Origin: Toxonevra muliebris
Lineage: Eukaryota; Arthropoda; Insecta; Diptera; Pallopteridae
NCBI GenBank assembly: GCA_963691655.1
Contig: OY829329.1
Location: 53,085,408-53,149,407, forward strand
DNA: 64,000 nucleotides
Direction of reading: 5' to 3'
Position numbers and translations under genes: made by a program. Shown one piece after another: positions 16,027-61,487 of this stretch. The notes beneath the pieces were generated by a model that saw nothing but the letters and a program-made list of their open reading frames with translations, was not told the origin of the DNA and did not search any database. How positions within the stretch are numbered: the stretch's first letter is position 1; every line of letters starts with the position of its first letter.

Positions 16027-19000
16027 GTGCCATCAAGGTACTCCAGGCGAACCTGCACCATGCCATAGGGGCATCGGCCACAGTATGCAGGCTTTTCGCT
16101 GAAAACAAATTCACCCTTGCGCTAATACAGGAGCCCTGGGTAAGCTGTGGTCAGGTCCGCGGACTCAATACGAATCATAGTAAGTTGCTTTACTTTCGTG
16201 GAGATGTTGTGCCAAGAGCGGCCATACTAATTGAAAAAAGTTTTAATTATCTCCCTCTTACTAATTTTATTTCCAGAGATCTCGTAGCCATACTGGTGGA
16301 GGTCCCCACTGCGAACGGAGTACAGGAGGTCGTGCTGGCGTCTGCATACTTTGCTGGGGACTTGCAACAAATCCCACCAATCGAGGTCCAGGATTTAATT
16401 AGTGACTGTCGGCAGTCCAATCGTCAATATGTTGTTGGCTGTGATGCTAATGCCCATCATACCATCTGGGGTAGTAGCAACATCAACGAACGAGGTGAGT
16501 GTCTTCTAAATTACTTAGTATCTAATAGTGTAGATATTGTAAATAGGGGATGTAAGCCTACTTTCATTACTGCAGCCAGGGAAGAGGTGCTGGACCTCAC
16601 CCTAGCCAGCAGGATATTGTCCGATTCTATTGTGAATTGGAGAGTCTCAGATGAAGCGTCCCTGTCTGATCATCAACACATAGTTTTTGACATTCCAGGA
16701 CGTACTGAGCTCCTTGCTAATGTAATTAATCCTAGAAGAACTAATTGGAGTCTGTTCCAAGCCATTGTGGGCACAAAGATAGATTCCATTGCTACCTCCA
16801 TCAGCTCAGTCGATGAACTGGAAGAGGTAGCAACTCAGCTCAATAATGTGCTAATTTCTTCCTATCAAGACAGTAATTTCGTTCCTACAACTAAAATGGT
16901 GCGCAAGGTACCCTGGTGGAACAATCAGCTGTCAGATATGCGCAAGCATGTCAGGAAGTTATTCAATAAATCAAAACGTACAAAGCAGTGGAATGAATAT
17001 AGGGTTGCACTGACGGAGTACAATATAGAAATTAGGAAGTCAAAACGCGATTGCTGGAGAAGACACTGTGAGAGTATCTCCTCGCTGCCTGAGGCAGCAC
17101 GTCTTCAAAGGGTTTTCGCCAAAGACTCTTCTAATGGGGTTGGTCTCCTCAAAAAGCATGATGGCACTTTTACTGCCAATCACCGCGAGACTCTGGAAAC
17201 TTTACTTCATGTTCATTTTCCGGGGTCTTCTACGGAAGTTACTCCGTCCTCTCCTGAAGTACATGATCATAGGATCTGCTTCTCCAATAGGACGAAGAGC
17301 CTTTCAGGGGTCATTTTTGACCGGAATAAGGTTAAATGGGCAGTGGCCTCTTTTAAACCTTATAAATCCCCAGGGGGTGACAGGATCTTTCCAGCAATGT
17401 TGCAGAACTGTCTGGAAACCATCCTTGACCACCTAGTTAAACTGTTTAGGGCAAGTTTCAATTGGGGATACATTCCAAGTTCTTGGAGGAAGGTGGTTGT
17501 CGTCTTCATTCCCAAACAAGGCAATAGGCCTCTGGAACTCCCTAAATCTTACAGGCCTATAAGCCTCACGTCTTTCCTGCTTAAAACCATGGAAAAACTG
17601 CTTGATTTACACTTTAGAAGCAAACTTGCAAGCTCGATACCTCTTCATCGAACGCAGTTTGCTTACATTAAGGGTAAATCGACCGAAGTCGCATTACATT
17701 GCCTTGTCAGTAAAATTGAAAAAACCTTTCGATCCAAAGAGATTGCGCTCTGTGCTTTCCTTGACATTGAGGGTGCCTTCGACAATACTGGATTCGGTTC
17801 TATTTCCAAAGCTTTGGAATGTAAGGGTATTGATTCCCAATCCATTGCCTGGGTGGATGCCATGCTGAGGAAGCGTGAAATCTCATCCACGCTAGGCAAA
17901 GCCACTGTGTGCACTAAGGCTGTAAAAGGCTGCCCACAAGGCGGTGTTCTATCACCTCTGTTGTGGTCCTTAGTAATTGATGACCTTTTGACTAAACTAG
18001 ATGAGTCTGGTTTTGAGGCCATCGGTTATGCGGATGATTTGGTAATCATCGTCTCTGGAAAGTATGATTCAACCATCACGGAGGTGATGAAATCAGCTCT
18101 CCTATTGGTTTCAAATTGGTGCGCCGTAGAAGGCCTATCAATCAATCCCAACAAAGCAGTTCTTGTTCCCTTTACTAAGAGATACAAACTGGACCTCGGT
18201 CCCATTTCCATACAAGACACTGTTATTGTGTACTCTGATGAGGTCAAATATTTAGGCATCACGCTTGACAAACGACTAAACTGGAACACTCACTTACACA
18301 CTGTCCTCTTAAAAGCCACTAGGGCTTTCTGGGCCTGCAAAAGACTCTTTGGTAAAACATGGGGTCTTACTCCTAAGATGATCTTTTGGCTCTACACCAT
18401 GATAGTTAGACCTGTCATAGCCTATGCGGCTCTAGTGTGGTGGCCCAAAGTCATGCAGGGCTCGGCCATCACCAAACTTAACAAGCTCCAAAGGCTTGCT
18501 TGCGTCTCCATAACTGGAGCTATGCGCACCTGTCCAACTCCTGCCATTGAAGCGCTGATTGGCCTGGTGCCATTACACATTTTCATCAAGAAAACAGCTG
18601 CAAATACTGCTTTGCGGCTGCGTATATCGTCAAGCTTACTTGAAGGCAACTATGGTCACCTGAGCATTCTTCACGAAATCCCTAACACTCCCATATGTAC
18701 TGTATCGGACTATATGGTTAGGGATCTATGTTTCGGTAGGAAATTCAACATCATTCTTCCTTCCAGGTCCGAATGGGATGGCCAATGTCCCGATTTCGGT
18801 CCCTTTGCTCTCAATTGGTATACAGACGGCTCGAAAATGGACTGTGGTTCTGGTGCCGGAGTTGCTGGACCCAATACTAGAATCTCAATCCCTCTGGGTA
18901 TTTGGCCCAGTGTCTTTCAAGCCGAAATATACGCAATTGAGACCTGCGCTAATATAAACCTGTATAAAGGTCTTAAAGGCGCAAATATTGTAATTTTCTC

Positions 19001-19632
19001 AGATAGCCAGGCGGCTCTCTTAGCACTCTCTTCATGGAGTTTTTTCATCTAAACTGGTGAAAGAGTGTTTTGATAGTCTCCAGCGCTTATCTACCCGTAA
19101 CAAAGTTACGCTTTGTTGGGTACCCGGCCACCGTGACATTGCTGGTAATGAAGCCGCCGATGAACTGGCTAGGCAAGGTTCATCTACCAAGCACTTCGGC
19201 CCCGATCCGTTTTGCGGAATCGGCTGGGCCTCCACGAAATCTATCGTTGAGGAGTGGTCTAAGGCAAAATGGCTAGAGTATTGGAACTCCATCCCGGGTT
19301 TAAGACAGGCAAAAGCTCTTATCATTCCGCTTGCCCAAAATCAGCCCATTTCTTATTCCAAACCTGACCTTAGGCTATTGGTGGGCTACATGTCTGGACA
19401 CCATGGGCTCAGATATCACCTAAGCAAAATAGGTCTGTCCAATGAGACAGAATGTCGTCTATGTATGGAAGATGACGAGACGACAGTTCACATTCTGTGT
19501 GAGTGTCCGGCCTTGGCTCGGCTCAGAGGAAGAATCTTTGATTATTCGTTTTTGACGGCTGATCACATGAAATCTTCTTCAACGAAAGATGTCTTGACTT
19601 TTATTAGGTCAGCCGAACGTCTTTTGTCATAA
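16023..19632 (+). CDS. LINE ORF2 polyprotein: endonuclease, reverse transcriptase, RNase H (one frameshift)
   Basis: Second ORF of the LINE, about 1202 codons if the frame were continuous. Residues 1-220 are an APE-type endonuclease (LQANLHH, QEPW at 36-39, GCDANAHH near 139, SDH at 215-217). The reverse transcriptase follows: SYRPISLTS, FLDIEGAFDN with Asp581, GCPQGGVLSP, and the YADD box at 669-672. RNase H begins with TDGS (Asp935), then AEIYAIE, DSQAAL and WVPGHRDIAGNEAAD. A C-terminal finger reads CRLC...H...C. The frame breaks at a run of six T (19040-19045): with five T the RNase H would continue. As it stands translation stops at 19050-19052, leaving a 1009-aa product without the second half of RNase H. 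The start codon overlaps the ORF1 stop. The break may be a real mutation or an assembly error. Confidence 0.92.
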
Positions 19633-28300: not shown

Positions 28301-28608
28301 GAATTGGTTAGTTTGTTTTAAATTACTATCAACTGATGTCTGGATCCGTTAACTGGGTCAAGAAAAAAATAGAAAAAACTTATTTTTCAAGAAAAAAAAT
28401 AGAAGAAACTAATTTTTCAAGAAAAAAAAATTAATTGTTGACGAAGTCATTTTTGTAGGACCCCGTTCCTGAAGTAGTGCCTTGAGGTGACCATCATAAC
28501 ATTTTACTGGTTCATCTTAAATTAACCCAAAAAAAAAAAAAAACCATTAGTTTAATAGTTAATCTAGTACCTAACGAGAAGCTTACTCGCGGATTTTTAA
28601 TAAAAACT
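25341..28608. other. AT-rich non-coding stretch
   Basis: No gene supported. It holds the PBS-like array at 25500-25828, a GAGA-rich tract at 26835-26868, and CGN/ACN trinucleotide-rich islands around 27730-27910. Open frames at 26519-26716, 26886-27071 and 27708-27920 are short and low in complexity. Confidence 0.5.
25500..25828 (+). repeat. Small array of PBS-like core repeats
   Basis: TTGGCGCTCAATGTGGGG at 25499-25516 followed by AACCACAG, and TTGGCGCCCAATGTGAG at 25812-25828 followed by TAACCACAG. Between them are shorter CATGTGGGGAT copies near 25563 and 25750 and a weak one near 25690. The first and last share the upstream context TATTTTTGT or ATTATTTTTGT. Confidence 0.6.
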
Positions 28609-28750
28609 ACCACTAAACGTTTAGTGGTAATTGATTTTTCTTTCTACTACCACTAAAGGTTTAGTGGTAGTTAATTTTTATTTCCACTTCCACTAAAGTT
28701 TTAGTGGTAGTTGATATTTATTTCCACTAACACTAAAGGTTTAGTGGTAG
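28609..28750. repeat. 40-bp minisatellite with a palindrome in each unit, 4 copies
   Basis: Four units at 28609, 28649, 28689 and 28729, exactly 40 bp apart. Each has an ACCACTAAA / TTTAGTGGT inverted pair; the first is a perfect 20-bp palindrome centred on CG, the others are imperfect. The linkers are ATTT/TTTC-rich. Confidence 0.9.
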
Positions 28751-29556
28751 TTAATATTTATTTCCACTTAGAAATTTAGTATTAAGCTTGTGTGTATGAA
28801 GGGCACCCTCCCTCTAGTAGTTGGTTTTGAAACTTAACAATAGGGAGAAAAATAAATGTTATGCCATGAAATGTCTCTTCATTTATTACAAATTATAATA
28901 TTAAATTTGGCTTGCATCAGCACCATGCAATTTAATTTCAAATATTTATTTTAAGCCTTAGATTATACTGTACTTAAGTTTTCCTTATCGTTCTTATCGT
29001 TTACTTTCAAAATTAGACAGTTCCAATGAATAAACACTGGGGAATTTTCAGCTTGCTGACTCAAACCACATACCCAATAATGCCAAAAATATGATGGTTT
29101 GGGTAAAACCGAATCCATTTTTTTTTAGAGTTTAAGTTAAAAAAAAAAAAAAAACGATCAGTTACGACATATTGTTTCCATTTCATATTGTAGTCTTTTT
29201 TTTGGTATGCAAACTCTGTATTGCGGTGAGTATTTTTGAAGATATTTCAAGTTACTTTATCAATTCTATCAAATCTGCGCTGAAATCGACGAAGAATATA
29301 TAATTCCAGCACAACACAACTAACAATTTCTAGGTTCTCATGTTTTAAATCATTAATTTTTTGTGTTTTTCATTTTGTCACTGTGCGTTCAAGTTTTGAA
29401 AGTATAGAAACTTGTCGTTTTCATACCAGCAAAGCAGATAAGTCCGTTTTTACATACGTCTAGCTGGTAATACCCGTGTCTTGGTTTGTTGGGCAATAGC
29501 AGCTTCCGCTATCTCTACTCTCTACTAGATCTCTACTTAATAGCAGTAAAAGTATA
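28751..29556. other. Non-coding stretch left of the nested transposons
   Basis: AT-rich with poly-A/T runs; nothing coding or structured enough to name. Confidence 0.5.
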
Positions 29557-29765
29557 TAAGGAGTGAGATTGAAAAAATCTTAATACACGTTTTACCTAAT
29601 AATTTTTTTTGGGTGTAAAATTTAAAAATTTCTTTGATCTAGTTATCTTTGAAAAGTATGTCTGTTGTTTTTTTTTAATGACAAACATGTTGATTTATTG
29701 TGAGTTTGATCAAAATGAGTGAAGAAAAAGAAGTGCGTCTTAAAATTATTAAAAAATTTTTTAAA

Positions 29766-29774
29766 AATCCAAAT
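29766..29774. repeat. Left 9-bp target duplication of the Foldback element
   Basis: AATCCAAAT immediately before the left terminus; identical to 48011-48019 immediately after the right terminus. Confidence 0.95.
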
Positions 29775-30067
29775 AACGGTGTGAAGATAGCCACGCGTGG
29801 CTATCTTAGCAAATACACAAACCACAAAATGTAAAAATTTCTATGTTAACTTAACAGAAAAAATGTTAACCAAAAAATGTAATGTTAAGCAGAATATAGA
29901 ATATTCTATCGGATCCTAATGACCATTTGGAGAACTGACTGTGACCACCAGACATACCATTCCATAGGTATTGAACAACAGTTTTATCCTGCATACACAA
30001 ATTTCACATATTTATCTCAGATTATTTTTAATTAATTTCTAAAATATATCATTTTGTAAACTGAGTT
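29775..30067 (+). repeat. Left outer inverted repeat of the Foldback element
   Basis: 293-bp terminal sequence. It contains a perfect 24-bp palindrome at 29784-29807 (half AAGATAGCCACG) and a 14-bp palindrome ATAGAATATTCTAT. From about 29918 inward (ACCATTTGGAGAAC, CCAGACAT, CCATAGGTATTGAA, TTATCCTGCAT) it aligns in order with the satellite monomer, so it looks like a diverged edge unit. Confidence 0.88.
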
Positions 30068-32148
30068 GGAGGAATCTGGTGGTTATATGGAGCACTTCTA
30101 CATATGTGCCAGATATCACATGGGTATCAGTGGATTGGTATTGAGGAGTAGATCAATCCTGCATTTCCCAAATATCTAACATTAATTTCGGTCTACTAGT
30201 AACGGCTGTTTGAAAATTTGCATGTTGGGTGCAAATGGGCGGAGGAACTGGTGGCCATATGGAGCACTTGTACATATGTGCCAGACATGACATGGGTATC
30301 AGTGGATAGGTATTGAGGAGTAGATCAATCCTGCATTTCCCAAATATCTAACATTAATTTCGGTCTACTAGTAACGGCTGTTTGAAAATTTGCATGTTAG
30401 GTGCAAATGGGCGGAGGAACTGGTGGTCATATGGAGCACTTCTACATATGTGCCAGATATCACATGGGTATCAGTAGATAGGTATTGAGAAGTAGATCAA
30501 TCCTGCGTTTCCCAAATATCTAACATTAATTTCGGTCTACTAGTAACGGCTGTTTGAAAATTTGCATGTTGGGTGCAAATGGGTGGAGGAACTGGTGGCC
30601 ATATGGAGCACTTCTACATATGTGCCAGATATGACATGGGTATCAGTAGATAGGTATTGAGGAGTAGATCAATCCTGCATTTCCCAAATATCTAACATTA
30701 ATTTCGGTCTACTAGTAACGGCTGTTTGAAAATTTGCATGTTGGGTGCAAATGGGCGGAGGAACTGGTGGTCATATGGAGCACTTCTACATATGTGCCAG
30801 ATATCACATGGGTACCAGTAGATAGGTATTGAGGAGTAGATCAATCCTGCATTTCCCAAATATCTAACATTAATTTCGGTCTACTAGTAACGGCTGTTTG
30901 AAAATTTGCATGTTGGGTGCAAATGGGTGGAGGAACTGGTGGTCATATGGAGCACTTCTACATATGTGCCAGATATGACATGGGTATCAGTAGATAGGTA
31001 TTGAGGAGTAGATCAATTCTGCATTTCCCAAATATCTAACATTAATTTCGGTCTACTACTAACGGCTGTTTGAAAATTTGCTTGTTGGGTGTAAATGGGT
31101 GGAGGAACTGGTGGTCATATGGAGCACTTGTACATATGTGCCAGACATGACATGGGTATCAGTAGATAGGTATTGAGGAGTAGATCAATCCTGCATTTCC
31201 CAAATATCTAACATTAATTTCGGTCTACTAGTAACGGCTGTTTGAAAATTTGGATGTTGGGTGCAAATGGGTGGAGGAACTGGTGGTCATATGGAGCACT
31301 TGTACATATGTGCCAGACATGACATGGGTATCAGTGGATAGGTATTGAGGAGTAGATCAATCCTGCATTTCCCAAATATCTAACATTAATTTCGGTCTAC
31401 TAGTAACGGCTGTTTGAAAATTCGCATATTGGGCGGAGGAACTGGTGGTCATATGGAGCACTTGTACATATGTGCCAGACATGACATGGGTATCAGTTGA
31501 TTGGTATTGAGGAGTAGATCAGTCCTGCATTTCCCAAATATCTAACATCAATTTCGGTCTACTAGTAACGGCTGTTTGAAAATTTGCATATTGGGTGGAG
31601 GAACTGGTGGCTATATGGAGCACTTGTACATATGTGCCAGACATGACATGGGTATCAGTGGATAGGTATTGAGGAGTAGATCAATCCTGCATTTCCCAAA
31701 TATCTAACATTAATTTCGGTCTACTAGTAACGGCTGTTTGAAAATTTGCATATTGGGTGGAGGAACTGGTGGTCAAATGGAGCACTTGTACATATGTGCC
31801 AGACATGACATGGGTATCAGTGGATTGGTATTGAGGAGTAGATCAATCCTGCATTTCCCAAATATCTAACATTAATTTCGGTCTACTAGTAACGGCTGTT
31901 TGAAAATTCGCATATTGGGTGGAGGAACTGGTGGTCATATGGAGCACTTGTACATATGTGCCAGACATGACATCGGTATCAGTGGATTGGTATTAAGGAG
32001 TAGATCAATCCTGCATTTCCCAAATATCTAACATAATTTCGGTCTACTAGTAACGGCTGTTTGAAAATTTGCATGTTGGGTGCAAATGAGTGGAGGAACT
32101 GGTGGCCATATGGAGCACTTGTACATATGTGCCAGACATGACATGGGT
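30068..32148 (+). repeat. Forward satellite array, first block (about 12 monomers)
   Basis: Head-to-tail 172-bp units, e.g. AACGGCTGTTTG at 30201, 30373, 30545 and 30717. From about 31400 onward a 162-bp variant appears (31405, 31567, 31729), lacking 10 bp between two GGGTG strings. The block ends in an assembly gap. Confidence 0.95.
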
Positions 32149-32348
32149 NNNNNNNNNNNNNNNNNNNNNNNNNNNNNNNNNNNNNNNNNNNNNNNNNNNN
32201 NNNNNNNNNNNNNNNNNNNNNNNNNNNNNNNNNNNNNNNNNNNNNNNNNNNNNNNNNNNNNNNNNNNNNNNNNNNNNNNNNNNNNNNNNNNNNNNNNNNN
32301 NNNNNNNNNNNNNNNNNNNNNNNNNNNNNNNNNNNNNNNNNNNNNNNN
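32149..32348. other. Assembly gap of 200 N
   Basis: Exactly 200 unknown bases, probably a fixed-size scaffolding gap. All open frames that cross it are meaningless. Confidence 0.98.
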
Positions 32349-32353
32349 TAAGG

Positions 32354-32646
32354 AACGGTGTGAAGATAGCCACGCGTGGCTATCTTAGCAAATACACAAA
32401 CCACAAAATGTAAAAATTTCTATGTTAACTTAACAGAAAAAATGTTAACCAAAAAATGTAATGTTAAGCAGAATATAGAATATTCTATCGGATCCTAATG
32501 ACCATTTGGAGAACTGACTGTGACCACCAGACATACCATTCCATAGGTATTGAACTACAGTTTTATCCTGCATACACAAATTTCACATATTTATCTCAGA
32601 TTATTTTTAATTAATTTCTAAAATATATCATTTTGTAAACTGAGTT
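32354..32646 (+). repeat. Second copy of the left Foldback terminus
   Basis: Starts AACGGTGTGAAG right after the gap, preceded only by TAAGG. It carries the base (GAACTACAG) found in the right terminus rather than that of the first left copy (GAACAACAG). It lacks the AATCCAAAT flank. Either a second nested element or an allelic contig joined by mistake. Confidence 0.9.
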
Positions 32647-34724
32647 GGAGGAATCTGGTGGTTATATGGAGCACTTCTACATATGTGCCAGATATCACAT
32701 GGGTATCAGTAGATAGGTATTGAGGAGTAGATCAATCCTGCATTTCCCAAATATCTAACATTAATTTCGGTCTACTAGTAACGGCTGTTTGAAAATTTGC
32801 ATGTTGGGTGCAAATGGGTGGAGGAACTGGTGGTCATATGGAGCACTTGTACATATGTGCCAGACATGACATGGGTATCAGTTGATTGGTATTGAGGAGT
32901 AGATCAATCCTACATTTCCCAAATATCTAACATTAATTTCGGTCTACTAGTAACGGCTGTTTGAAAATTTGCATGTTGGGTGCAAATGGGTGGAGGAACT
33001 GGTGGTCATATGGAGCACTTGTACATATGTGCCAGACATGACATGGGTATCAGTTGATTGGTATTGAGGAGTAGATCAATCCTGCATTTCCCAAATATCT
33101 AACATTAATTTCGGTCTACTAGTAACGGCTGTTTGAAAATTTGCATGTTAGGTGCAAATGGGCGGAGGAACTGGTGGCCATATGGAGCACTTCTACATAT
33201 GTGCCAGATATGTCATGGGTATCAGTGGATAGGTATTGAGAAGTAGATCAATCCTGCATTTCCCAAATATCTAACATTAATTTCGGTCTACTAGTAACGG
33301 CTGTTTGAAAATTTGCATGTTGGGTGCAAATGGGTGGAGGAACTGGTGGTCATATGGAGCACTTGTACATATGTGCCAGACATGACATGGGTATCAGTTG
33401 ATTGGTATTGAGGAGTAGATCAATCCTGCATTTCCCAAATATCTAACATTAATTTCGGTTTACTAGTAACGGCTGTTTGAAAATTTGGATGTTGGGTGCA
33501 AATGGGCGGAGGAACTGGTGGTCATATGGAGCACTTGTACATATGTGCCAGACATGACATGGGTATCAGTTGATTGGTATTGAGGAGTAGATCAATCCTG
33601 CATTTCCCAAATATCTAACATTAATTTCGGTTTACTAGTAACGGCTGTTTGAAAATTTGGATGTTGGGTGCAAATGGGCGGAGGAACTGGTGGTCATATG
33701 GAGCACTTGTACATATGTGCCAGACATGACATGGGTATCAGTTGATTGGTATTGAGGAGTAGATCAATCCTGCATTTCCCAAATATCTAACATTAATTTC
33801 GGTCTACTAATAACGGCTGTTTGAAAATTTGGATGTTGGGTGCAAATGGGCGGAGGAACTGGTGGCCATATGGAGCACTTCTACATATGTGCCAGATATC
33901 ACATGGGTATCAGTAGATAGGTATTGAGGAGCAGATTAATCCTGCGTTTCCCAAATATCTAACATTAATTTCGGTCTACTAGTAACGGCTGTTTGAAAAT
34001 TTGCATGTTGGGTGCAAATGGGTGGAGGAACTGGTGGTCATATGGAGCACTTGTACATATGTGCCAGATATGACATGGGTATCAGTAGATAGGTATTGAG
34101 GAGTAGATCAATCCTGCATTTCCCAAATATCTAACATTAATTTCGGTCTACTACTAACGGCTGTTTGAAAATTTTGCATGTTGGGTGCAAATGGGTGGAG
34201 GAACTGGTGGTCATATGGAGCACTTGTACATATGTGCCACACATGACATGGGTATCAGTTGATTGGTATTGAGGAGTAGATCAGTCCTGCATTTCCCAAA
34301 TATCTAACATTAATTTCGGTCTACTAATAATGGCTGTTTGAAAATTTGGATGTTGGGTTCAAATGGGCGGAGGAACTGGTGGCCATATGGAGCACTTCTA
34401 CATATGTGCCAGATATCACATGGGTATCAGTAGATAGGTATTGAGGAGCAGATTAATCCTGCGTTTCCCAAATATCTAACATTAATTTCGGTCTACTAGT
34501 AACGGCTGTTTGAAAATTTGCATGTTGGGTGCAAATGGGTGGAGGAACTGGTGGTCATATGGAGCACTTGTACATATGTGCCAGATATGACATGGGTATC
34601 AGTAGATAGGTATTGAGGAGTAGATCAATCCTGCATTTCCCAAATATCTAACATTAATTTCGGTCTACTAGTAACGGCTGTTTGAAAATTTGCATGTTGG
34701 GTGCAAATGGGCGGAGGAACTGGT
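32647..34724 (+). repeat. Forward satellite array, second block (about 12 monomers)
   Basis: Same 172-bp monomer in forward orientation, ending within a unit at GGAGGAACTGGT. Confidence 0.93.
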
Positions 34725-34744
34725 ATATTCAATCAATCATTACT
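34725..34744. other. Inversion junction (loop) of the Foldback element
   Basis: About 20 bp (ATATTCAATCAATCATTACT) between the last forward and first reversed unit, not present in the monomer. This is the whole unique centre of the element. Confidence 0.85.
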
Positions 34745-37700
34745 CGTAGACCGAAATTAACGTTAGATATTTGGGAAATGCAGGATTGATCTACTCCTCA
34801 ATACCAATCCACTGATACCCATGTCATGTCTGGCACATATGTACAAGTGCTCCATATGGCCACCAGTTCCTCCACTCATTTGCACCCAACATCCAAATTT
34901 TCAAACAGCCGTTACTAGTAGACGGAAATTAATGTTAGATATTTGGGAAATGCAGGATTGATCTACTCCTCAATACCAATCCACTGATACCCATGTCATG
35001 TCTGGCACATATGTACAAGTGCTCCATATGGCCACCAGTTCCTCCACTCATTTGCACCCAACATCCAAATTTTCAAACAGCCGTTACTAGTAGACGGAAA
35101 TTAATGTTAGATATTTGGGAAATGCAGGATTGATCTACTCCTCAATACCAATCCACTGATACCCATGTCATGTCTGGCACATATGTACAAGTGCTCCATA
35201 TGGCCACCAGTTCCTCCACTCATTTGCACCCAACATCCAAATTTTCAAACAGCCGTTACTAGTAGACGGAAATTAATGTTAGATATTTGGGAAATGCAGG
35301 ATTGATCTACTCCTCAATACCTATCCACTGATACCCATGTCATATCTGGCACATATGTAGAAGTGCTCCATATGGCCACCAGTTCCTCCACCCGTTTGCA
35401 CCCAACATCCAAATTTTCAAACAGCCGTTACTAGTAGACCGGAATTAATGTTAGATATTTGGGAAATGCAGGATTGATCCACTCCTCAATACCAATCCAC
35501 TGATACCCATGTGATATCTGGCACATATGTAGAAGTGCTCTATATGACCACCAGTTCCTCCGCCCATTTGCACCTAACATGCAAATTTTCAAACAGCCGT
35601 TACTAGTAGACCGAAATTAATGTTAGATATTTGGGAAATGCAGGATTGATCTACTCCTCAATACCAATCCACTGATACCCATGTCATGTCTGGCACATAT
35701 GTACAAGTGCTCCATATGGCCACCAGTTCCTCCACCCAATATGCAAATTTTCAAACAGCCGTTACTAGTAGACCGAAATTAATGTTAGATATTTGGGAAA
35801 TGCAGGATTGATCTACTCCTCAATACCAATCCACTGATACCCATGTCATGTCTGGCACATATGTACAAGTGCTCCATATGGCCACCAGTTCCTCCACCCA
35901 ATATGCGAATTTTCAAACAGCCGTTACTAGTAGACCGAAATTAATGTTAGATATTTGGGAAATGCAGGATTGATCCACTCCTCAATACCAATCCACTGAT
36001 ACCCATGTCATGTCTGGCACATATGTAGAAGTGCTCCATATGGCCACCAGTTCCTCCGCCCATTTGCACCTAACATGCAAATTTTCAAACAGTCGTTACT
36101 AGAAGACCGAAATTAATGTTAGATATTTGGGAAATGCAGGATTGATCTACTCCTCAATACCAATCCACTGATACCCATGTCATGTCTGGCACATATGTAG
36201 AAGTGCTCCATATGACCACCAGTTCCTCCGCCCATTTGCACCCAACATGCAAATTTTCAAACAGCCGTTACTAGTAGACCGAAATTAATGTTAGATATTT
36301 GGGAAATGCAGGATTGATCTACTCCTCAATACCTATCCACTGATACCCATGTCATGTCTGGCACATATGTACAAGTGCTCCATATGACCACCAGTTCCTC
36401 CACCCATTTGCACCCAACATGCAAATTTTCAAACAGACGTTACTAGCAGACCGAAATTAATGTTAGATATTTGGGAAATGCAGGATTGATCTACTCCTCA
36501 ATACCTATCTCCTGATACCCATGTCATGTCTGGCACATATGTAGAAGTGCTCCATATGGCCACCAGTTCCTCCGCCCATTTGCACCCAACATGCAAATTT
36601 TCAAACAGCCGTTACTAGTAGACCGAAATTAATGTTAGATATTTGGGAAATGCAGGATTGATCTACTCCTCAATACCTATCTACTGATACCCATGTCATG
36701 TCTGGCACATATGTACAAGTGCTCCATATGACCACCAGTTCCTCCACCCAATATGCGAATTTTCAAACAGCCGTTACTAGTAGACCGAAATTAATGTTAG
36801 ATATTTGGGAAATGCAGGATTGATCTACTCCTCAATACCTATCGACTGATACCCATGTCATATCTGGCACATATGTAGAAGTGCTCCATATGTCCACCAG
36901 TTCCTCCACCCATTTGCACCCAACATGCAAATTTTCAAACAGCCGTTACTAGTAGACCGAAATTAATGTTAGATATTTGGGAAATGCAGGATTGATCTAC
37001 TCCTTAATACCAATCCACTGATACCGATGTCATGTCTGGCACATATGTACAAGTGCTCCATATGACCACCAGTTCCTCCACCCATTTGCACCCAACATGC
37101 AAATTTTCAAACAGCCGTTACTAGTAGACGGAAATTAATCTTAGATATTTGGGAAATGCAGGATTGATATACTCCTCAATACCTATCCACTGATACCCAT
37201 GTCATGTCTGGCACATATGTACAAGTGCTCCATATGACCACCAGTTCCTCCACCCATTTACACCCAACAAGCAAATTTTCAAACAGCCGTTAGTAGTAGA
37301 CCGAAATTAATGTTAGATATTTGGGAAATGCAGGATTGATCTACTCCTCAATACCTATCTACTGATACCCATGTCATGTCTGGCACATATGTAGAAGTGC
37401 TCCATATGGCCACCAGTTCCTCCACCCAATATGCGAATTTTCAAACAGCCGTTACTAGTACACCGAAATTAATGTTAGATATTTGGGAAATGCAGGACTG
37501 ATCTACTCCTCAATACCAATCCACTGATACCCATGTCATGTCTGGCACATATGTACAAGTGCTCCATATGACCACCAGTTCCTCCACCCATTTGCACCCA
37601 ACATACAAATTTTCAAACAGCCGTTACTAGTAGACCGAAATTAATGTTAGATATTTGGGAAATGCAGGATTGATCTACTCCTCAATACCAATCCACTGAT

Positions 37701-40700
37701 ACCCATGTCATGTCTGGCACATATGTACAAGTGCTCCATATGGCCACCAGTTCCTCCACCCAATATGCGAATTTTCAAACAGCCGTTACTAGTAGACCGA
37801 AATTAATGTTAGACATTTGGGAAATGCAGGATTGATCCACTCCTCAATACCAATCCACTGATACCCATGTGATATCTGGCACATATGTAGAAGTGCTCCA
37901 TATGACCACCAGTTCCTCCGCCCATTTGCACCTAACATGCAAATTTTCAAACAGCCGTTACTAGTAGACCGAAATTAATGTTAGATATTTGGGAAATGCA
38001 GGATTGATCTACTCCTCAATACCAATCCACTGATACCCATGTCATGTCTGGCACATATGTACAAGTGCTCCATATGGCCACCAGTTCCTCCACCCAATAT
38101 GCAAATTTTCAAACAGCCGTTACTAGTAGACCGAAATTAATGTTAGATATTTGGGAAATGCAGGATTGATCTACTCCTCAATACCAATCCACTGATACCC
38201 ATGTCATATCTGGCACATATGTAGAAGTGCTCCATATGGCCACCAGTTCCTCCACCCAATATGCAAATTTTCAAACAGCCGTTACTAGTAGACCGAAATT
38301 AATGTTAGATATTTGGGAAATGCAGGATTGATCTACTCCTCAATACCAATCCACTGATACCCATGTCATGTCTGGCACATATGTACAAGTGCTCCATATG
38401 GCCACCAGTTCCTCCACCCAATATGCGAATTTTCAAACAGCCGTTACTAGTAGACCGAAATTAATGTTAGATATTTGGGAAATGCAGGATTGATCCACTC
38501 CTCAATACCAATCCACTGATACCCATGTGATATCTGGCACATATGTAGAAGTGCTCCATATGACCACCAGTTCCTCCGCCCATTTGCACCTAACATGCAA
38601 ATTTTCAAACAGCCGTTACTAGTAGACCGAAATTAATGTTAGATATTTGGGAAATGCAGGATTGATCTACTCCTCAATACCAATCCACTGATACCCATGT
38701 CATGTCTGGCACATATGTACAAGTGCTCCATATGGCCACCAGTTCCTCCACCCAATATGCAAATTTTCAAACAGCCGTTACTAGTAGACCGAAATTAATG
38801 TTAGATATTTGGGAAATGCAGGATTGATCTACTCCTCAATACCAATCCACTGATACCCATGTCATGTCTGGCACATATGTACAAGTGCTCCATATGACCA
38901 CCAGTTCCTCCACCCATTTGCACCCAACATGCAAATTTTCAAACAGCCGTTACTAGTAGACGGAAATTAATGTTAGATATTTGGGAAATGCAGGATTGAT
39001 CTACTCCTCAATACCTATCCACTGATACCCATGTCATATCTGGCACATATGTAGAAGTGCTCCATATGGCCACCAGTTCCTCCACCCATTTGCACCCAAC
39101 ATCCAAATTTTCAAACAGCCGTTACTAGTAGACCGAAATTAATGTTAGATATTTGGGAAATGCAGGATTGATCTACTCCTCAATACCAATCCACTGATAC
39201 CCATGTCATGTCTGGCACATATGTAGAAGTGCTCCATATGACCACCAGTTCCTCCGCCCATTTGCACCCAACATGCAAATTTTCAAACAGCCGTTACTAG
39301 TAGACCGAAATTAATGTTAGATATTTGGGAAATGCAGGATTGATCTACTCCTCAATACCTATCCACTGATACCCATGTCATGTCTGGCACATATGTACAA
39401 GTGCTCCATATGACCACCAGTTCCTCCACCCATTTGCACCCAACATGCAAATTTTCAAACAGACGTTACTAGCAGACCGAAATTAATGTTAGATATTTGG
39501 GAAATGCAGGATTGATCTACTCCTCAATACCTATCTCCTGATACCCATGTCATGTCTGGCACATATGTAGAAGTGCTCCATATGGCCACCAGTTCCTCCG
39601 CCCATTTGCACCCAACATGCAAATTTTCAAACAGCCGTTACTAGTAGACCGAAATTAATGTTAGATATTTGGGAAATGCAGGATTGATCTACTCCTCAAT
39701 ACCTATCTACTGATACCCATGTCATGTCTGGCACATATGTAGAAGTGCTCCATATGGCCACCAGTTCCTCCACCCAATATGCGAATTTTCAAACAGCCGT
39801 TACTAGTACACCGAAATTAATGTTAGATATTTGGGAAATGCAGGACTGATCTACTCCTCAATACCAATCCACTGATACCCATGTCATGTCTGGCACATAT
39901 GTACAAGTGCTCCATATGACCACCAGTTCCTCCACCCATTTGCACCCAACATACAAATTTTCAAACAGCCGTTACTAGTAGACCGAAATTAATGTTAGAT
40001 ATTTGGGAAATGCAGGATTGATCTACTCCTCAATACCAATCCACTGATACCCATGTCATGTCTGGCACATATGTACAAGTGCTCCATATGGCCACCAGTT
40101 CCTCCACCCAATATGCGAATTTTCAAACAGCCGTTACTAGTAGACCGAAATTAATGTTAGACATTTGGGAAATGCAGGATTGATCCACTCCTCAATACCA
40201 ATCCACTGATACCCATGTGATATCTGGCACATATGTAGAAGTGCTCCATATGACCACCAGTTCCTCCGCCCATTTGCACCTAACATGCAAATTTTCAAAC
40301 AGCCGTTACTAGTAGACCGAAATTAATGTTAGATATTTGGGAAATGCAGGATTGATCTACTCCTCAATACCAATCCACTGATACCCATGTCATGTCTGGC
40401 ACATATGTACAAGTGCTCCATATGGCCACCAGTTCCTCCACCCAATATGCAAATTTTCAAACAGCCGTTACTAGTAGACCGAAATTAATGTTAGATATTT
40501 GGGAAATGCAGGATTGATCTACTCCTCAATACCAATCCACTGATACCCATGTCATATCTGGCACATATGTAGAAGTGCTCCATATGGCCACCAGTTCCTC
40601 CACCCAATATGCAAATTTTCAAACAGCCGTTACTAGTAGACCGAAATTAATGTTAGATATTTGGGAAATGCAGGATTGATCTACTCCTCAATACCAATCC

Positions 40701-43700
40701 ACTGATACCCATGTCATGTCTGGCACATATGTACAAGTGCTCCATATGGCCACCAGTTCCTCCACCCAATATGCGAATTTTCAAACAGCCGTTACTAGTA
40801 GACCGAAATTAATGTTAGATATTTGGGAAATGCAGGATTGATCCACTCCTCAATACCAATCCACTGATACCCATGTGATATCTGGCACATATGTAGAAGT
40901 GCTCCATATGACCACCAGTTCCTCCGCCCATTTGCACCTAACATGCAAATTTTCAAACAGCCGTTACTAGTAGACCGAAATTAATGTTAGATATTTGGGA
41001 AATGCAGGATTGATCTACTCCTCAATACCAATCCACTGATACCCATGTCATGTCTGGCACATATGTACAAGTGCTCCATATGGCCACCAGTTCCTCCACC
41101 CAATATGCAAATTTTCAAACAGCCGTTACTAGTAGACCGAAATTAATGTTAGATATTTGGGAAATGCAGGATTGATCTACTCCTCAATACCAATCCACTG
41201 ATACCCATGTCATGTCTGGCACATATGTACAAGTGCTCCATATGACCACCAGTTCCTCCACCCATTTGCACCCAACATGCAAATTTTCAAACAGCCGTTA
41301 CTAGTAGACGGAAATTAATGTTAGATATTTGGGAAATGCAGGATTGATCTACTCCTCAATACCTATCCACTGATACCCATGTCATATCTGGCACATATGT
41401 AGAAGTGCTCCATATGGCCACCAGTTCCTCCACCCATTTGCACCCAACATCCAAATTTTCAAACAGCCGTTACTAGTAGACCGAAATTAATGTTAGATAT
41501 TTGGGAAATGCAGGATTGATCTACTTCTCAATACCTATCCACTGATACCCATGACATATCTGGCACATATGTAGAAGTGCTCCATATGGCCACCAGTTCC
41601 TCCGCCCATTTGCACCTAACATGCAAATTTTCAAACAGCCGTTACTAGTAGACCGAAATTAATGTTAGATATTTGGGAAATGCAGAATTGATCCACTCCT
41701 CAATACGAATCCACTGATACCCATGTGATATCTGGCACATATGTAGAAGTGCTCCATATGACCACCAGTTCCTCCGCCCATTTGCACCTAACATGCAAAT
41801 TTTCAAACAGCCGTTACTAGTAGACCGAAATTAATGTTAGATATTTGGGAAATGCAGGATTGATCTACTCCTCAATACCAATCCACTGATACCCATGTCA
41901 TGTCTGGCACATATGTACAAGTGCTCCATATGGCCACCAGTTCCTCCACCCAATATGCAAATTTTCAAACAGCCGTTACTAGTAGACCGAAATTAATGTT
42001 AGATATTTGGGAAATGCAGGATTGATCCACTCCTCAATACCAATCCACTGATACCCATGTCATGTCTGGCACATATGTAGAAGTGCTCCATATGACCACC
42101 AGTTCCTCCGCCCATTTGCACCCAACATGCAAATTTTCAAACAGCCGTTACTAGTAGACCGAAATTAATGTTAGATATTTGGGAAATGCAGGATTGATCT
42201 ACTCCTCAATACCTATCCACTGATACCCATGTCATGTCTGGCACATATGTACAAGTGCTCCATATGACCACCAGTTCCTCCACCCATTTGCACCCAACAT
42301 GCAAATTTTCAAACAGACGTTACTAGCAGACCGAAATTAATGTTAGATATTTGGGAAATGCAGGATTGATCTACTCCTCAATACCTATCTCCTGATACCC
42401 ATGTCATGTCTGGCACATATGTAGAAGTGCTCCATATGGCCACCAGTTCCTCCGCCCATTTGCACCCAACATGCAAATTTTCAAACAGCCGTTACTAGTA
42501 GACCGAAATTAATGTTAGATATTTGGGAAATGCAGGATTGATCTACTCCTCAATACCTATCTACTAATACCCATGTCATGTCTGGCACATATGTACAAGT
42601 GCTCCATATGACCACCAGTTCCTCCACCCAATATGCGAATTTTCAAACAGCCGTTACTAGTAGACCGAAATTAATGTTAGATATTTGGGAAATGCAGGAT
42701 TGATCTACTCCTCAATACCTATCTACTGATACCCATGTCATATCTGGCACATATGTAGAAGTGCTCCATATGTCCACCAGTTCCTCCACCCATTTGCACC
42801 CAACATGCAAATTTTCAAACAGCCGTTACTAGTAGACGGAAATTAATGTTAGATATTTGGGAAATGCAGGATTGATCTACTCCTCAATACCTATCCACTG
42901 ATACCCATGTCATGTCTGGCACATATGTACAAGTGCTCCATATGACCACCAGTTCCTCCACCCAATATGCGAATTTTCAAACAGCCGTTACTAGTAGACC
43001 GAAATTAATGTTAGATATTTGGGAAATGCAGGATTGATCTACTCCTCAATACCTATCTACTGATACCCATGTCATATCTGGCACATATGTAGAAGTGCTC
43101 CATATGACCACCAGTTCCTCCGCCCATTTGCACCTAACATGCAAATTTTCAAACAGCCGTTACTAGAAGACCGAAATTAATGTTAGATATTTGGGAAATG
43201 CAGGATTGATCTACTCCTCAATACCAATCCACTGATACCCATGTCATGTCTGGCACATATGTACAAGTGCTCCATATGACCACCAGTTCCTCCACCCAAT
43301 ATGCGAATTTTCAAACAGCCGTTACTAGAAGACCGAAATTAAGGTTAGATATTTGGGAAATGCAGGATTGATCTACTCCTCAATACCAATCCACTGATAC
43401 CCATGTCATGTCTGGCACATATGTAGAAGTGCTCCATATGACCACCAGTTCCTCCGCCCATTTGCACAGAACATGCAAATTTTCAAACAGCCGTTACTAG
43501 TAGACCGAAATTAATGTTAGATATTTGGGAAATGCAGGATTGATCTACTCCTCAATACCAATCCACTGATACCCATGTCATGTCTGGCACATATGTAGAA
43601 GTGCTCCATATGACCACCAGTTCCTCCGCCCATTTGCACCCAACATGCAAATTTTCAAACAGCCGTTACTAGTAGACCGAAATTAATGTTAGATATTTGG

Positions 43701-46700
43701 GAAATGCAGGATTGATCTACTCCTCAATACCTATCCACTGATACCCATGTCATGTCTGGCACATATGTACAAGTGCTCCATATGACCACCAGTTCCTCCA
43801 CCCATTTGCACCCAACATGCAAATTTTCAAACAGACGTTACTAGCAGACCGAAATTAATGTTAGATATTTGGGAAATGCAGGATTGATCTACTCCTCAAT
43901 ACCTATCTCCTGATACCCATGTCATGTCTGGCACATATGTAGAAGTGCTCCATATGGCCACCAGTTCCTCCGCCCATTTGCACCCAACATGCAAATTTTC
44001 AAACAGCCGTTACTAGTAGACCGAAATTAATGTTAGATATTTGGGAAATGCAGGATTGATCTACTCCTCAATACCTATCTACTAATACCCATGTCATGTC
44101 TGGCACATATGTAGAAGTGCTCCATATGACCACCAGTTCCTCCGCCCATTTGCACCCAACATGCAAATTTTCAAACAGCCGTTACTAGTAGACCGAAATT
44201 AATGTTAGATATTTGGGAAATGCAGGATTGATCTACTCCTCAATACCTATCCACTGATACCCATGTCATGTCTGGCACATATGTACAAGTGCTCCATATG
44301 ACCACCAGTTCCTCCACCCATTTGCACCCAACATGCAAATTTTCAAACAGACGTTACTAGCAGACCGAAATTAATGTTAGATATTTGGGAAATGCAGGAT
44401 TGATCTACTCCTCAATACCTATCTCCTGATACCCATGTCATGTCTGGCACATATGTAGAAGTGCTCCATATGGCCACCAGTTCCTCCGCCCATTTGCACC
44501 CAACATGCAAATTTTCAAACAGCCGTTACTAGTAGACCGAAATTAATGTTAGATATTTGGGAAATGCAGGATTGATCTACTCCTCAATACCTATCTACTA
44601 ATACCCATGTCATGTCTGGCACATATGTACAAGTGCTCCATATGACCACCAGTTCCTCCACCCAATATGCGAATTTTCAAACAGCCGTTACTAGTAGACC
44701 GGAATTAATGTTAGATATTTGGGAAATGCAGGATTGATCTACTCCTCAATACCTATCTACTGATACCCATGTCATATCTGGCACATATGTAGAAGTGCTC
44801 CATATGTCCACCAGTTCCTCCACCCATTTGCACCCAACATGCAAATTTTCAAACAGCCGTTACTAGTAGACGGAAATTAATGTTAGATATTTGGGAAATG
44901 CAGGATTGATCTACTCCTCAATACCTATCCACTGATACCCATGTCATGTCTGGCACATATGTACAAGTGCTCCATATGGCCACCAGTTCCTCCGCCCATT
45001 TGCACCTAACATGCAAATTTTCAAACAGCCGTTACTAGTAGACCGAAATTAATGTTAGATATTTGGGAAATGCAGGATTGATCTACTCCTCAATACCTAT
45101 CTACTGATACCCATGTCATATCTGGCACATATGTAGAAGTGCTCCATATGACCACCAGTTCCTCCGCCCATTTGCACCTAACATGCAAATTTTCAAACAG
45201 CCGTTACTAGAAGACCGAAATTAATGTTAGATATTTGGGAAATGCAGGATTGATCTACTCCTCAATACCAATCCACTGATACCCATGTCATGTCTGGCAC
45301 ATATGTACAAGTGCTCCATATGACCACCAGTTCCTCCACCCAATATGCGAATTTTCAAACAGCCGTTACTAGAAGACCGAAATTAAGGTTAGATATTTGG
45401 GAAATGCAGGATTGATCTACTCCTCAATACCAATCCACTGATACCCATGTCATGTCTGGCACATATGTAGAAGTGCTCCATATGACCACCAGTTCCTCCG
45501 CCCATTTGCACCCAACATGCAAATTTTCAAACAGCCGTTACTAGTAGACCGAAATTAATGTTAGATATTTGGGAAATGCAGGATTGATCTACTCCTCAAT
45601 ACCAATCCACTGATACCCATGTCATGTCTGGCACATATGTAGAAGTGCTCCATATGACCACCAGTTCCTCCGCCCATTTGCACCCAACATGCAAATTTTC
45701 AAACAGCCGTTACTAGTAGACCGAAATTAATGTTAGATATTTGGGAAATGCAGGATTGATCTACTCCTCAATACCAATCCACTGATACCCATGTCATGTC
45801 TGGCACATATGTACAAGTGCTCCATATGACCACCAGTTCCTCCACCCAATATGCGAATTTTCAAACAGCCGTTACTAGAAGACCGAAATTAAGGTTAGAT
45901 ATTTGGGAAATGCAGGATTGATCTACTCCTCAATACCAATCCACTGATACCCATGTCATGTCTGGCAGATATGTAGAAGTGCTCCATATGACCACCAGTT
46001 CCTCCGCCCATTTGCACCCAACATGCAAATTTTCAAACAGACGTTACTAGCAGACCGAAATTAATGTTAGATATTTGGGAAATGCAGGATTGATCTACTC
46101 CTCAATACCTATCTCCTGATACCCATGTCATGTCTGGCACATATGTAGAAGTGCTCCATATGGCCACCAGTTCCTCCGCCCATTTGCACCCAACATGCAA
46201 ATTTTCAAACAGCCGTTACTAGTAGACCGAAATTAATGTTAGATATTTGGGAAATGCAGGATTGATCTACTCCTCAATACCTATCTACTAATACCCATGT
46301 CATGTCTGGCACATATGTAGAAGTGCTCCATATGACCACCAGTTCCTCCGCCCATTTGCACCCAACATGCAAATTTTCAAACAGCCGTTACTAGTAGACC
46401 GAAATTAATGTTAGATATTTGGGAAATGCAGGATTGATCTACTCCTCAATACCTATCCACTGATACCCATGTCATGTCTGGCACATATGTACAAGTGCTC
46501 CATATGACCACCAGTTCCTCCACCCATTTGCACCCAACATGCAAATTTTCAAACAGACGTTACTAGCAGACCGAAATTAATGTTAGATATTTGGGAAATG
46601 CAGGATTGATCTACTCCTCAATACCTATCTCCTGATACCCATGTCATGTCTGGCACATATGTAGAAGTGCTCCATATGGCCACCAGTTCCTCCGCCCATT

Positions 46701-47717
46701 TGCACCCAACATGCAAATTTTCAAACAGCCGTTACTAGTAGACCGAAATTAATGTTAGATATTTGGGAAATGCAGGATTGATCTACTCCTCAATACCTAT
46801 CCACTGATACCCATGTCATGTCTGGCACATATGTACAAGTGCTCCATATGACCACCAGTTCCTCCACCCAATATGCGAATTTTCAAACAGCCGTTACTAG
46901 TAGACCGAAATTAATGTTAGATATTTGGGAAATGCAGGATTGATCTACTCCTCAATAGCTATCTACTGATACCCATGTCATATCTGGCACATATGTAGAA
47001 GTGCTCCATATGACCACCAGTTCCTCCGCCCATTTGCACCTAACATGCAAATTTTCAAACAGCCGTTACTAGAAGACCGAAATTAATGTTAGATATTTGG
47101 GAAATGCAGGGAATGATCTACTCCTCAATACCAATCCACTGATACCCATGTCATGTCTGGCACATATGTAGAAGTGCTCCATATGACCACCAGTTCCTCC
47201 GCCCATTTGCACCCAACATGCAAATTTTCAAACAGCCGTTACTAGTAGACCGAAATTAATGTTAGATATTTGGGAAATGCAGGATTGATCTACTCCTCAA
47301 TACCTATCCACTGATACCCATGTCATGTCTGGCACATATGTACAAGTGCTCCATATGACCACCAGTTCCTCCACCCATTTGCACCCAACATGCAAATTTT
47401 CAAACAGACGTTACTAGCAGACCGAAATTAATGTTAGATATTTGGGAAATGCAGGATTGATCTACTCCTCAATACCTATCTACTGATACCCATGTCATGT
47501 CTGGCACATATGTAGAAGTGCTCCATATGGCCACCAGTTCCTCCGCCCATTTGCACCCAACATGCAAATTTTCAAACAGCCGTTACTAGTAGACCGAAAT
47601 TAATGTTAGATATTTGGGAAATGCAGGATTGATCTACTCCTCAATACCTATCCACTGATACCCATGTGATATCTGGCACATATGTAGAAGTGCTCCATAT
47701 AACCACCAGATTCCTCC
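34745..47717 (-). repeat. Reverse satellite array (about 76 monomers)
   Basis: Reverse-oriented 172/162-bp monomers over 13 kb. Two coupled variant types alternate: ACATATGTACAAGTG with CATGTCTGG, and ACATATGTAGAAGTG often with CATATCTGG or GATATCTGG. Higher-order blocks are visible: about 37295-39168 recurs at 39643-41516 (shift 2348 bp), and a 516-bp (three-monomer) spacing recurs at 43829/44345 and 46035/46551. Confidence 0.95.
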
Positions 47718-48010
47718 AACTCAGTTTACAAAATGATATATTTTAGAAATTAATTAAAAATAATCTGAGATAAATATGTGAAATTTGTGTATGCAGGATA
47801 AAACTGTAGTTCAATACCTATGGAATGGTATGTCTGGTGGTCACAGTCAGTTCTCCAAATGGTCATTAGGATCCGATAGAATATTCTATATTCTGCTTAA
47901 CATTACATTTTTTGGTTAACATTTTTTCTGTTAAGTTAACATAGAAATTTTTACATTTTGTGGTTTGTGTATTTGCTAAGATAGCCACGCGTGGCTATCT
48001 TCACACCGTT
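47718..48010 (-). repeat. Right outer inverted repeat of the Foldback element
   Basis: Inverted copy of 29775-30067, with the 24-bp palindrome at 47978-48001 and the end CTTCACACCGTT at 48010. Confidence 0.92.
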
Positions 48011-48019
48011 AATCCAAAT
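48011..48019. repeat. Right 9-bp target duplication of the Foldback element
   Basis: AATCCAAAT, identical to 29766-29774. Rejoining at this sequence keeps the transposase frame of the host mariner element. Confidence 0.95.
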
Positions 48020-49046
48020 TGGTCCTACAAATAATTGGACAAAGAATTGAAGGTCTGCCGTGAAACTGTTTCCAATGTTATTAAACAGTTTCAGGAGAAT
48101 TTGACCATCGATAGGAAACCTGGTTCGGGAAGAAAACAATGACCACAAGATATTGGGAAAGCCAAGGAAATAGAAAGCATATTGAAAAGATCTCCAAACA
48201 CATCTGGTAGAAAAGCTACACGGTTAGCCCAGTGCTCTGGGTCCAAAAAGTTCCAGACAGGAATGCTGCAAAAAATTTAGACGCCAAAAGTAGGGCTCGG
48301 AAATTAACATCAAATTTCATACAAAAATATTCATGTTGTATAATGGACGACGAAACGTATGTACTGGCAGATTTTACGCAGCTTCCGAGTCAAAATTTTT
48401 ATGTTGCTGATGCTCGAGGAAATGCCGAAGAACAATTTAGAATCCAAAAGTAGACAAAATTTCCTAAAAAATTCCTGGTATAGCAAGCTATATGCAGTTG
48501 CGGCAAAAGAAGCAAGTCATTTGTTACAGTGGGCTCTATAAATACCGAAATATACATCAAAGAATATTTGAAAAAAAGACTTCTTCCTTTCATAAGAGAG
48601 CACAATGTGTCCACATATTTTTGGCCCGATTTGGCATCATGTGACTAAGGCAAGAAAGCTCTGGAGTGGTACCAAAGTAATAACATAGTTTTTGTACCAA
48701 GAGAGGCTAATCATCCAAATTGTCCGGAGCTAAGACCAGTGGAGCTCTTGTGAAAAAAAACTTAAAGGGCACAAAAAAGGTGTCCCAAAATATCGAAGAT
48801 TTTAAAAGGAGATGGGCAAACTGTTCCAAAAAGGTGTCTGAAACAACTATCAAATCTCTAATGGAAGGCTTACAAAAAAAAAGGTCCACGAGTTCATAAA
48901 TAGTGGTTAGAAATATAAAAGTTATATTTTTCTGTAATTTGTAAAATAATATCAATTAAATAAAAAAAAAATCAAAACTCTAAGATCAACCGTTTAAAAA
49001 TTATTGAATTTTATATATGTTAAGATTTTTTCGATCTCACTCCTTA

Positions 49047-60631: not shown

Positions 60632-61487
60632 AATGTATTTGTTCCTCTTCGATTACAACTCTGTTCTGCTACTTATTTTGACATCATTGCGAAGGAACAA
60701 AGAAAGAGCATGTGAAAAGAAGAGAGTGGAAGAGGTGTAGAAATCTTCTTTGTTTTGAATTTTTTGTATTTTTATCGCGTAATAATGTGTAGTTAAAAAA
60801 CTGGAAAACATATTCAGAAAATATAATTTTAACACTGCCTGAATTGAAAGCATTTGATAAATTTATTGTGGACCTCGAAAGAATTTGAAGAAAAGCAAAA
60901 ATCTGTGGATAACAAGATGATTTTCTTTTCTTTGTGAGAGCTACGTAGTAATTAAAACGAGGTGAAAACAATAACAAAAACAAAGGGCGCAGTGTGGAGA
61001 GATTGGGTGATACCCGAACGAAGGAAGGCCAAGAGTATTTAAAAAAACAAAAATTATTCTTGCTGCTCCAAAATAAAACAGAAGAGAATCGACAATAAAA
61101 TAGACAGAGGTAAGGAAATGCAAAATAAAATGTGAATGATTTCATCCAATTAAGTAATAACAAAATGTAACTTTGACAGAATTTTAGTTTCCATAACGAT
61201 ATAGCTAGGTTGGCAGAATAACATTCAACATTCTTGTTTTCAAAGTTGCGCTCACGCTGTCTCTGTTGCCATTACTACAATTGCTCATCCACACATACTG
61301 GTTACTACCAGTACTACTATTATTCGTCCTATTGGTCATCTGCATTATCCTGCTAGCCCAGGCACCGTGGTTTCAACTGCATCCGCAGCAACTTTTCGAA
61401 CATAGTGAACGTATTTATTATTTACGTTTGCATTGCATAGCAAAAATCGATCGTTTCATTGCTTTGTACACTGATGTTTCGCGTAAA
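60632..61487. other. Upstream region of Atg4, including an ATG-less open frame
   Basis: The probable promoter and 5' UTR of Atg4 lie here, but no TATA box or start site can be fixed by eye. From 61209 to 61487 the frame of Atg4 exon 1 stays open for 93 codons without any ATG and encodes a strongly hydrophobic stretch (see findings). The minus-strand frame at 60684-61163 lacks an ATG and looks fortuitous. Confidence 0.5.

Follow-up and report, generated by a model that had tools for sequence, protein, structure and literature searches.

A non-autonomous foldback transposon family with satellite-sized arm repeats in the genome of the fly Toxonevra muliebris

Introduction

The Foldback (FB/NOF) elements of Drosophila melanogaster carry inverted arms made of tandem repeats and are flanked by 9-bp target site duplications (TSDs); their repeats are short, and the elements are only a few kilobases long. 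Tetris, a non-autonomous foldback element of Drosophila virilis and D. americana, has been described as a terminal flanking domain followed by tandem repeats of ~220 bp and a variable middle (PMC4079207). According to that account, the TSDs measure 8 to 9 bp in three complete copies and 9 to 10 bp in four rearranged ones, the repeats have a 37-bp stretch in common with the flanking domain, the terminal inverted repeats (TIRs) are up to 1,735 bp long in the copies sequenced, and fiber-FISH reveals extended arrays of the repeat with a flanking domain on either side, with foldback elements being proposed from these data as seeds of satellite DNA (PMC4079207). Galileo is reported as a member of the P superfamily with 7-bp TSDs and TIRs of up to ~1.26 kb, including ~210-bp internal tandem repeats in one subfamily, and has been associated with inversions, arms that vary in length, and chimeric copies whose TSDs do not match (PMC3573991, PMC3688188). 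The foldback-like element Tm1 of root-knot nematodes has composite TIRs and mostly 9-bp TSDs, with a Mutator/Phantom-like transposase in some of the copies described; its repeats are 13 to 15 bp long and the elements ~1 kb (PMC3169594).

Here we analyze a locus within a 64,000-nucleotide stretch (the window; C4:53085408-53149407) of the T. muliebris assembly, which comprises 491 Mb in 96 contigs. The element in the window is very probably a copy of a non-autonomous foldback family that inserted into an old Tc1-like copy, with the termini here called L1 and R as its two ends. This family, for which we recognized no earlier description in the open-licence literature, is a non-autonomous foldback whose design is closest to that of Tetris: set beside Tetris by published description only, it has the same succession of a flanking domain, tandem repeats, and a middle of variable size. 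It resembles FB/NOF in its opposed tandem-repeat arms and 9-bp TSD, Galileo as described in having long TIRs with internal tandem repeats and changes in arm length, and Tm1 as described in its composite TIRs and 9-bp TSD; unlike them, respectively, it yielded no NOF-like coding copy, makes a 9-bp rather than a 7-bp duplication, and is built of 172/162-bp repeats instead of 13- to 15-bp ones.

Results

Two 293-bp termini lie in inverted orientation at positions 29775 to 30067 (L1, plus strand, a short-arm type with A at position 203) and 47718 to 48010 (R, minus strand), and differ at a single position, 203. The 9-mer AATCCAAAT flanks both outer ends (29766 to 29774 and 48011 to 48019, both read on the plus strand), so that the inverted ends and the exact target duplication proposed in the sequence-only reading are both borne out. 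Some 100 opposed monomers of 172 or 162 bp had also been proposed; between L1 and R we counted 102 matches including partial ones, 25 on the plus strand and 77 on the minus strand, 66 of them 172 bp long and 27 of them 162 bp long, the shorter form being the longer one minus its last 10 bases. Mean monomer distances within and between arms fall between 3.7 and 4.6%. The inner part of the TIR aligns to the monomer in register, with none of 300 shuffles equally good, and its outermost 45 bp had no homology to the monomer above chance (347 of 500 shuffles were equally good). Nine bases inside the termini is a 24-bp perfect palindrome, AAGATAGCCACGCGTGGCTATCTT, at 29784 to 29807 and 47978 to 48001 and also at 32363 to 32386 in the third terminus described below; it is a candidate recognition site. 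The short satellite arm of L1 (30068 to 32148, plus strand) holds 12 monomers and a 57-bp piece and is truncated by a gap; the long satellite arm (34725 to 47717, minus strand) accounts for 77 monomer matches and contains layered exact repeats, the largest a tandem duplication of 1,884 bp at a spacing of 2,348 bp.

The sequence into which the element inserted is a decayed Tc1-like element (29557 to 49046, plus strand, including the TA at both outer edges) with ends TAAGGAGTGAGAT. When the flanks are joined with a single TSD, a Tc1-like transposase frame runs through the join, with MSEEKEVRLKIIKKFFKNP on its left and NWSYK, a stop, and LDKELKVCRETVSNVIKQF on its right; because the frame is restored in this way, L1 and R are the two ends of one insertion. 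The Tc1 label draws mainly on the matching ends, the TA edges, and a transposase motif that we take to be Tc1-like, with weak backing from Pfam, where one of three transposase pieces gave sub-cutoff helix-turn-helix hits including HTH_Tnp_Tc3_2 and two gave none.

The interior of this span is less straightforward. A single run of 200 N (32149 to 32348), a scaffold gap, follows the arm of L1, and 5 bp beyond it, where the assembled sequence begins at 32349, is a complete third TIR (L2; 32354 to 32646, plus strand). L2 is identical to R over 293 bp, faces the same way as L1, and is preceded by TAAGG instead of AATCCAAAT; L2 and R are the nearest opposed pair in the window and have no TSD in common. 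Its satellite arm (32647 to 34724, plus strand) consists of 12 monomers and a 13-bp piece and is 97.2% identical to its nearest relative. L1 and R belong to one subfamily and the L2 arm to a different one. The monomers adjoining the termini at L1, L2, and R are most alike among themselves. With a gap and a third terminus inside it, the 18,236-bp span is scaffolded and a length of 18.2 kb is not established; the proposal of an 18-kb element in one contiguous copy is thus not supported, and we estimate the length of the window element at ~15.8 kb, i.e., the sum of a 2,501-bp short arm and a 13,286-bp long arm. A unique 20-bp loop had likewise been proposed at its center, but the supposed loop (34725 to 34746, minus strand) aligns to a degenerate monomer, and the arms therefore meet in a direct inverted junction (J). 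We also considered that the arms of L1 and L2, which are nearly equal in length with their TIRs (2,374 and 2,371 bp), could be a single arm assembled twice, and dropped this idea on finding the two sequences 94.3% identical.

Related termini are dispersed at independent sites throughout the genome. A search with the 293-bp terminus returned 234 candidates, of which 40 were scored, all at 99 to 100% identity, and a search with the outer 86 bp gave 41 matches from 40 scored out of 196 candidates; flanks were read for all 40 ends of the first search and for 54 ends in total. Among the 40 scored ends there were 14 opposed pairs, with the window counted as L1-R, and 20 of the 40, L2 included, had no partner in the set. 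An exact 9-bp TSD flanks 8 of the 14 pairs (the window, E02, E03, E04, E07, E11, E12, and E13), and none was present in the remaining 6 (E01, E05, E06, E08, E09, and E10). The outer-86-bp search additionally revealed a second subfamily, with TIRs 89 to 91% and full monomers ~78 to 85% identical to those of the window, in which all seven new opposed pairs have an exact 9-bp TSD (nine new single ends are outside this count) and all seven carry plus-strand monomers at the left end and minus-strand monomers at the right. The expectation that other genomic copies would be flanked by duplications was accordingly borne out in part, for 15 of the 21 opposed pairs examined, and failed for 6. Long inverted termini with opposed internal tandem repeats were found in the window and in the sampled family copies alike, which together with the TSDs at many loci, a 20,467-bp copy, and a middle domain in some copies upholds the reading of a foldback-type transposon with satellite-sized arm repeats. 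One pair of identical copies of the outer 86 bp, on C3 at 41663831 and 41663953, is in the same orientation and only 122 bp apart.

Exact complementary 9-mers occurred in 17 of the 1,431 pairings possible among 54 ends, compared to 0.04 expected; 15 of these are the opposed pairs above and 2 join ends at different loci. The same pairings gave 1, 0, and 0 matches at word lengths of 7, 8, and 10. TSDs of the P superfamily are 7 to 8 bp long, and the Galileo-like 7-bp duplication is therefore not what characterizes this family. A further candidate pair, TATATTTTT at an end on C5 and TATTTTTTT at an end on C3, which differ by one mismatch, was dismissed as low complexity. Within the window's group the presence of a TSD follows the shape of the copy: all six TSD-less pairs are two-armed and belong to this group, and seven gap-free copies with TSDs have one monomer on one side and the remainder on the other (TSDs in 0 of 6 two-armed pairs, excluding the window, versus 7 of 7 one-monomer-arm pairs). 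A general link between two-armed structure and a missing TSD was rejected, since all seven pairs of the second subfamily have their TSDs.

Copies flanked by TSDs are between 3.3 and 20.5 kb long overall, and in the window's group, the window itself aside, they span 3,333 to 11,020 bp. The longest, in the second subfamily (C1:85636345-85656811; TSD TAAAGTTTA), measures 20,467 bp by coordinates and was read in parts, namely, 9,695 bp of the left side, the right end, three 401-bp samples, and the center. The left 9,695 bp contain 54 plus-strand monomers and no N, and between the plus and minus arms is a non-satellite middle of ~550 bp in which no stop-to-stop frame longer than 56 amino acids was found outside monomers. 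Of this middle, 321 bp are found again at 98% identity at C2:94.98 (3.9 kb), C1:120.40 (3.6 kb), and C5:8.69, so that at least 321 bp are common to three TSD-flanked copies of 3.6, 3.9, and 20.5 kb, and copies with the same core therefore differ greatly in arm length.

Arms are also shared between loci. Over their 2,374 bp, L1 and its arm agree base for base (100%) with the opening stretch of the 2,501-bp short arms ending at C1:60.44, C2:78.24, and C3:63.95, and a single mismatch sets them apart from the short arm at C1:52.50. Of the 13,286 bp of the R arm, 10,931 bp lie in exact blocks of at least 300 bp that also occur in the long arm (8,206 bp) at C1:60.43, and no more than 420 bp are shared with any of the five other long arms compared. 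Such identity at several loci could be partly an assembly effect as well as a sign of recent spread.

No coding copy of the family was found, the longest stop-to-stop frame in six copies measured being 85 amino acids. The genome has 11 matches to MULE genes, and the window terminus was absent within 1.5 kb of the 10 of these loci that were fetched; the suggested autonomous partner between the same termini was thus not recovered from this sample. A 9-bp TSD fits the Mutator superfamily, and the family probably uses a transposase of this type. Among the MULE loci of this fly, L061 also encodes a FLYWCH domain, and L058 and L059 have inverted repeats built of AATCCCGAAA-like units and may represent another foldback-like family. 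Rfam gave no match on the window at the gathering threshold, words of the terminus had no exact match in viral contigs, monomer words had none in viral or genome contigs, and the terminus with its first monomers had no match in phages.

Several other features were identified in the window. A non-LTR retrotransposon (13981 to 19632, plus strand) encodes a DUF4780 ORF1 and an endonuclease/reverse transcriptase ORF2, with a C-terminal RNase H part in another frame from ~19024, and a degraded reverse transcriptase fragment lies in two frames at 3365 to 4152 (minus strand). A 40-bp repeat is present in about four copies at 28606 to 28768, ~0.8 kb left of the Tc1-like end, and its first copy contains a 22-bp perfect palindrome. 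Exons of an ATG4 cysteine protease lie at 61209 to 62839 (plus strand); put together with guessed splice junctions, they give a 90% match to Teleopsis dalmanni, an 88% match to Anastrepha ludens, and a ~73 to 76% match to Drosophila species, which points to a higher (schizophoran) fly as the host. The few named homologs of the LINE had suggested a psyllid, a reading dropped in view of ATG4.

Alternative explanations

Two pairs of loci raise the possibility that ectopic recombination has split single insertions by inversion. The end at C1:52.50 has an exact 9-mer partner (CTCGAAAAT) at C1:60.43, 7.9 Mb away, and the end at C3:63.84 has one (CCAAAAACA) at C3:63.90, 61 kb away; within each pair of loci the two ends share a chromosome and are co-oriented as an inversion predicts. 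Two of the six TSD-less pairs have an end whose 9-mer partner is found at another place on their chromosome. In both pairs of loci, however, one partner belongs to an element that contains a 200-N gap, and a mis-oriented contig or wrong join therefore explains the same pattern; we regard inversion as a real possibility at these loci and as somewhat less than an even prospect. The left ends of C1:60.43 and C1:52.50, which are TSD partners, have long and short arms, respectively, of the types found in the window. If they are one insertion, a two-armed unit has moved to at least two sites, and these two insertions of one subfamily have a short arm in common and long arms of different length (8,206 versus 13,286 bp).

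The third terminus in the window might alternatively mark a nested insertion, with L2 belonging to a second element that entered the first one's left arm and lost its right end when the two minus-strand arms underwent exchange. In favor of nesting, the L2 terminus is complete, its flank is foreign, and its arm is of another subfamily; the plus-strand monomers also contain TAAGG a single time, at 31994, although those five bases likewise form the Tc1-like edge at 29557. No second right terminus is present within the window, however, and the gap with its 5-bp flank fits a contig end at a repeat boundary. The copy at C3:34.49 (L039) is similar in that its assembled sequence stops 11 bp outside the right terminus, beside a 200-N gap; at both edges it is as if the assembly had stopped where the repeat did. 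We consider nesting unlikely, and a nested or recombinant element a less likely source of the arm after the gap than a chimeric assembly across nearly identical arms, which is most likely. The window copy is real, and its middle is badly assembled.

This raises the question of whether opposed arms arise only where half-elements from different loci were joined in the assembly. Six two-armed copies have no TSD, E10 pairs its 2,501-bp short arm with a long arm that agrees with the one in E04 at every base over 4,571 bp, and 200-N gaps occur in or 11 bp beside 6 of the 17 loci read (the window, E05, E08, S1, S2, and S3); the seven one-monomer-arm copies are free of such gaps. On the other hand, all seven sampled copies of the second subfamily have opposed monomers at their ends together with exact TSDs, and junction J recurs at 11 of the 17 family loci read at length, evidence that already contradicts a pure artefact for the family as a whole and leaves it improbable. 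Least credible is a true tandem satellite that was never mobile and whose edges were overwritten by transposon ends, since its one attraction, the length and homogeneity of the monomer arrays, is set against identical multi-kilobase arms at different sites, arrays that sit between ends with exact 9-bp TSDs, and the lack of any monomer match longer than 14 bp in the window outside the element.

Discussion

In this study, we characterized a foldback family whose arms are arrays of a satellite-sized repeat. In the explanation that we favor, a 293-bp terminal domain forms each end of an element, and inward of it the 172/162-bp monomers, which have homology to that domain's inner part, run in tandem and in opposed directions on the two sides. 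The family would be mobilized in trans by a transposase, presumably of the Mutator/MULE type, whose insertions generate 9-bp duplications and which may recognize the 24-bp palindrome located 9 bp inside the termini. Arm length may shift through unequal exchange and tandem duplication, and this would account for TSD-flanked copies between 3.3 and 20.5 kb. L2, in turn, we infer to have been added to the window copy by assembly joining.

A broader proposal, which we put forward tentatively and hold to be possible rather than probable, is that the nucleosome-sized satellite itself spreads as expanding foldback arms, with arrays of 2 to 13 kb being transposed and then resized by unequal exchange, and that the opposed arms, being almost identical, have already produced inversions. 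The inversions concerned would measure 61 kb on C3 and 7.9 Mb on C1 and would split single insertions together with their TSDs.

Compared to Tetris as described, the arms here are long, reaching ~13 kb in the window, and one TSD-flanked copy measures 20,467 bp; identical arms at separate sites are a further point of contrast with the published account. Arrays of several kilobases are found here between termini with intact TSDs, and the arms of the Tetris copies whose sequences are reported are short by comparison. Such elements may also break assemblies, as suggested by the 200-N gaps in or beside 6 of 17 loci. Taken with TSD-flanked arrays, arms of 2.4 to 2.5 kb that are identical across sites make the dispersal of a satellite by transposition, and the growth of its arrays after insertion, directly measurable copy by copy, and our findings suggest that satellite DNA is carried around the genome of this fly inside a transposon.
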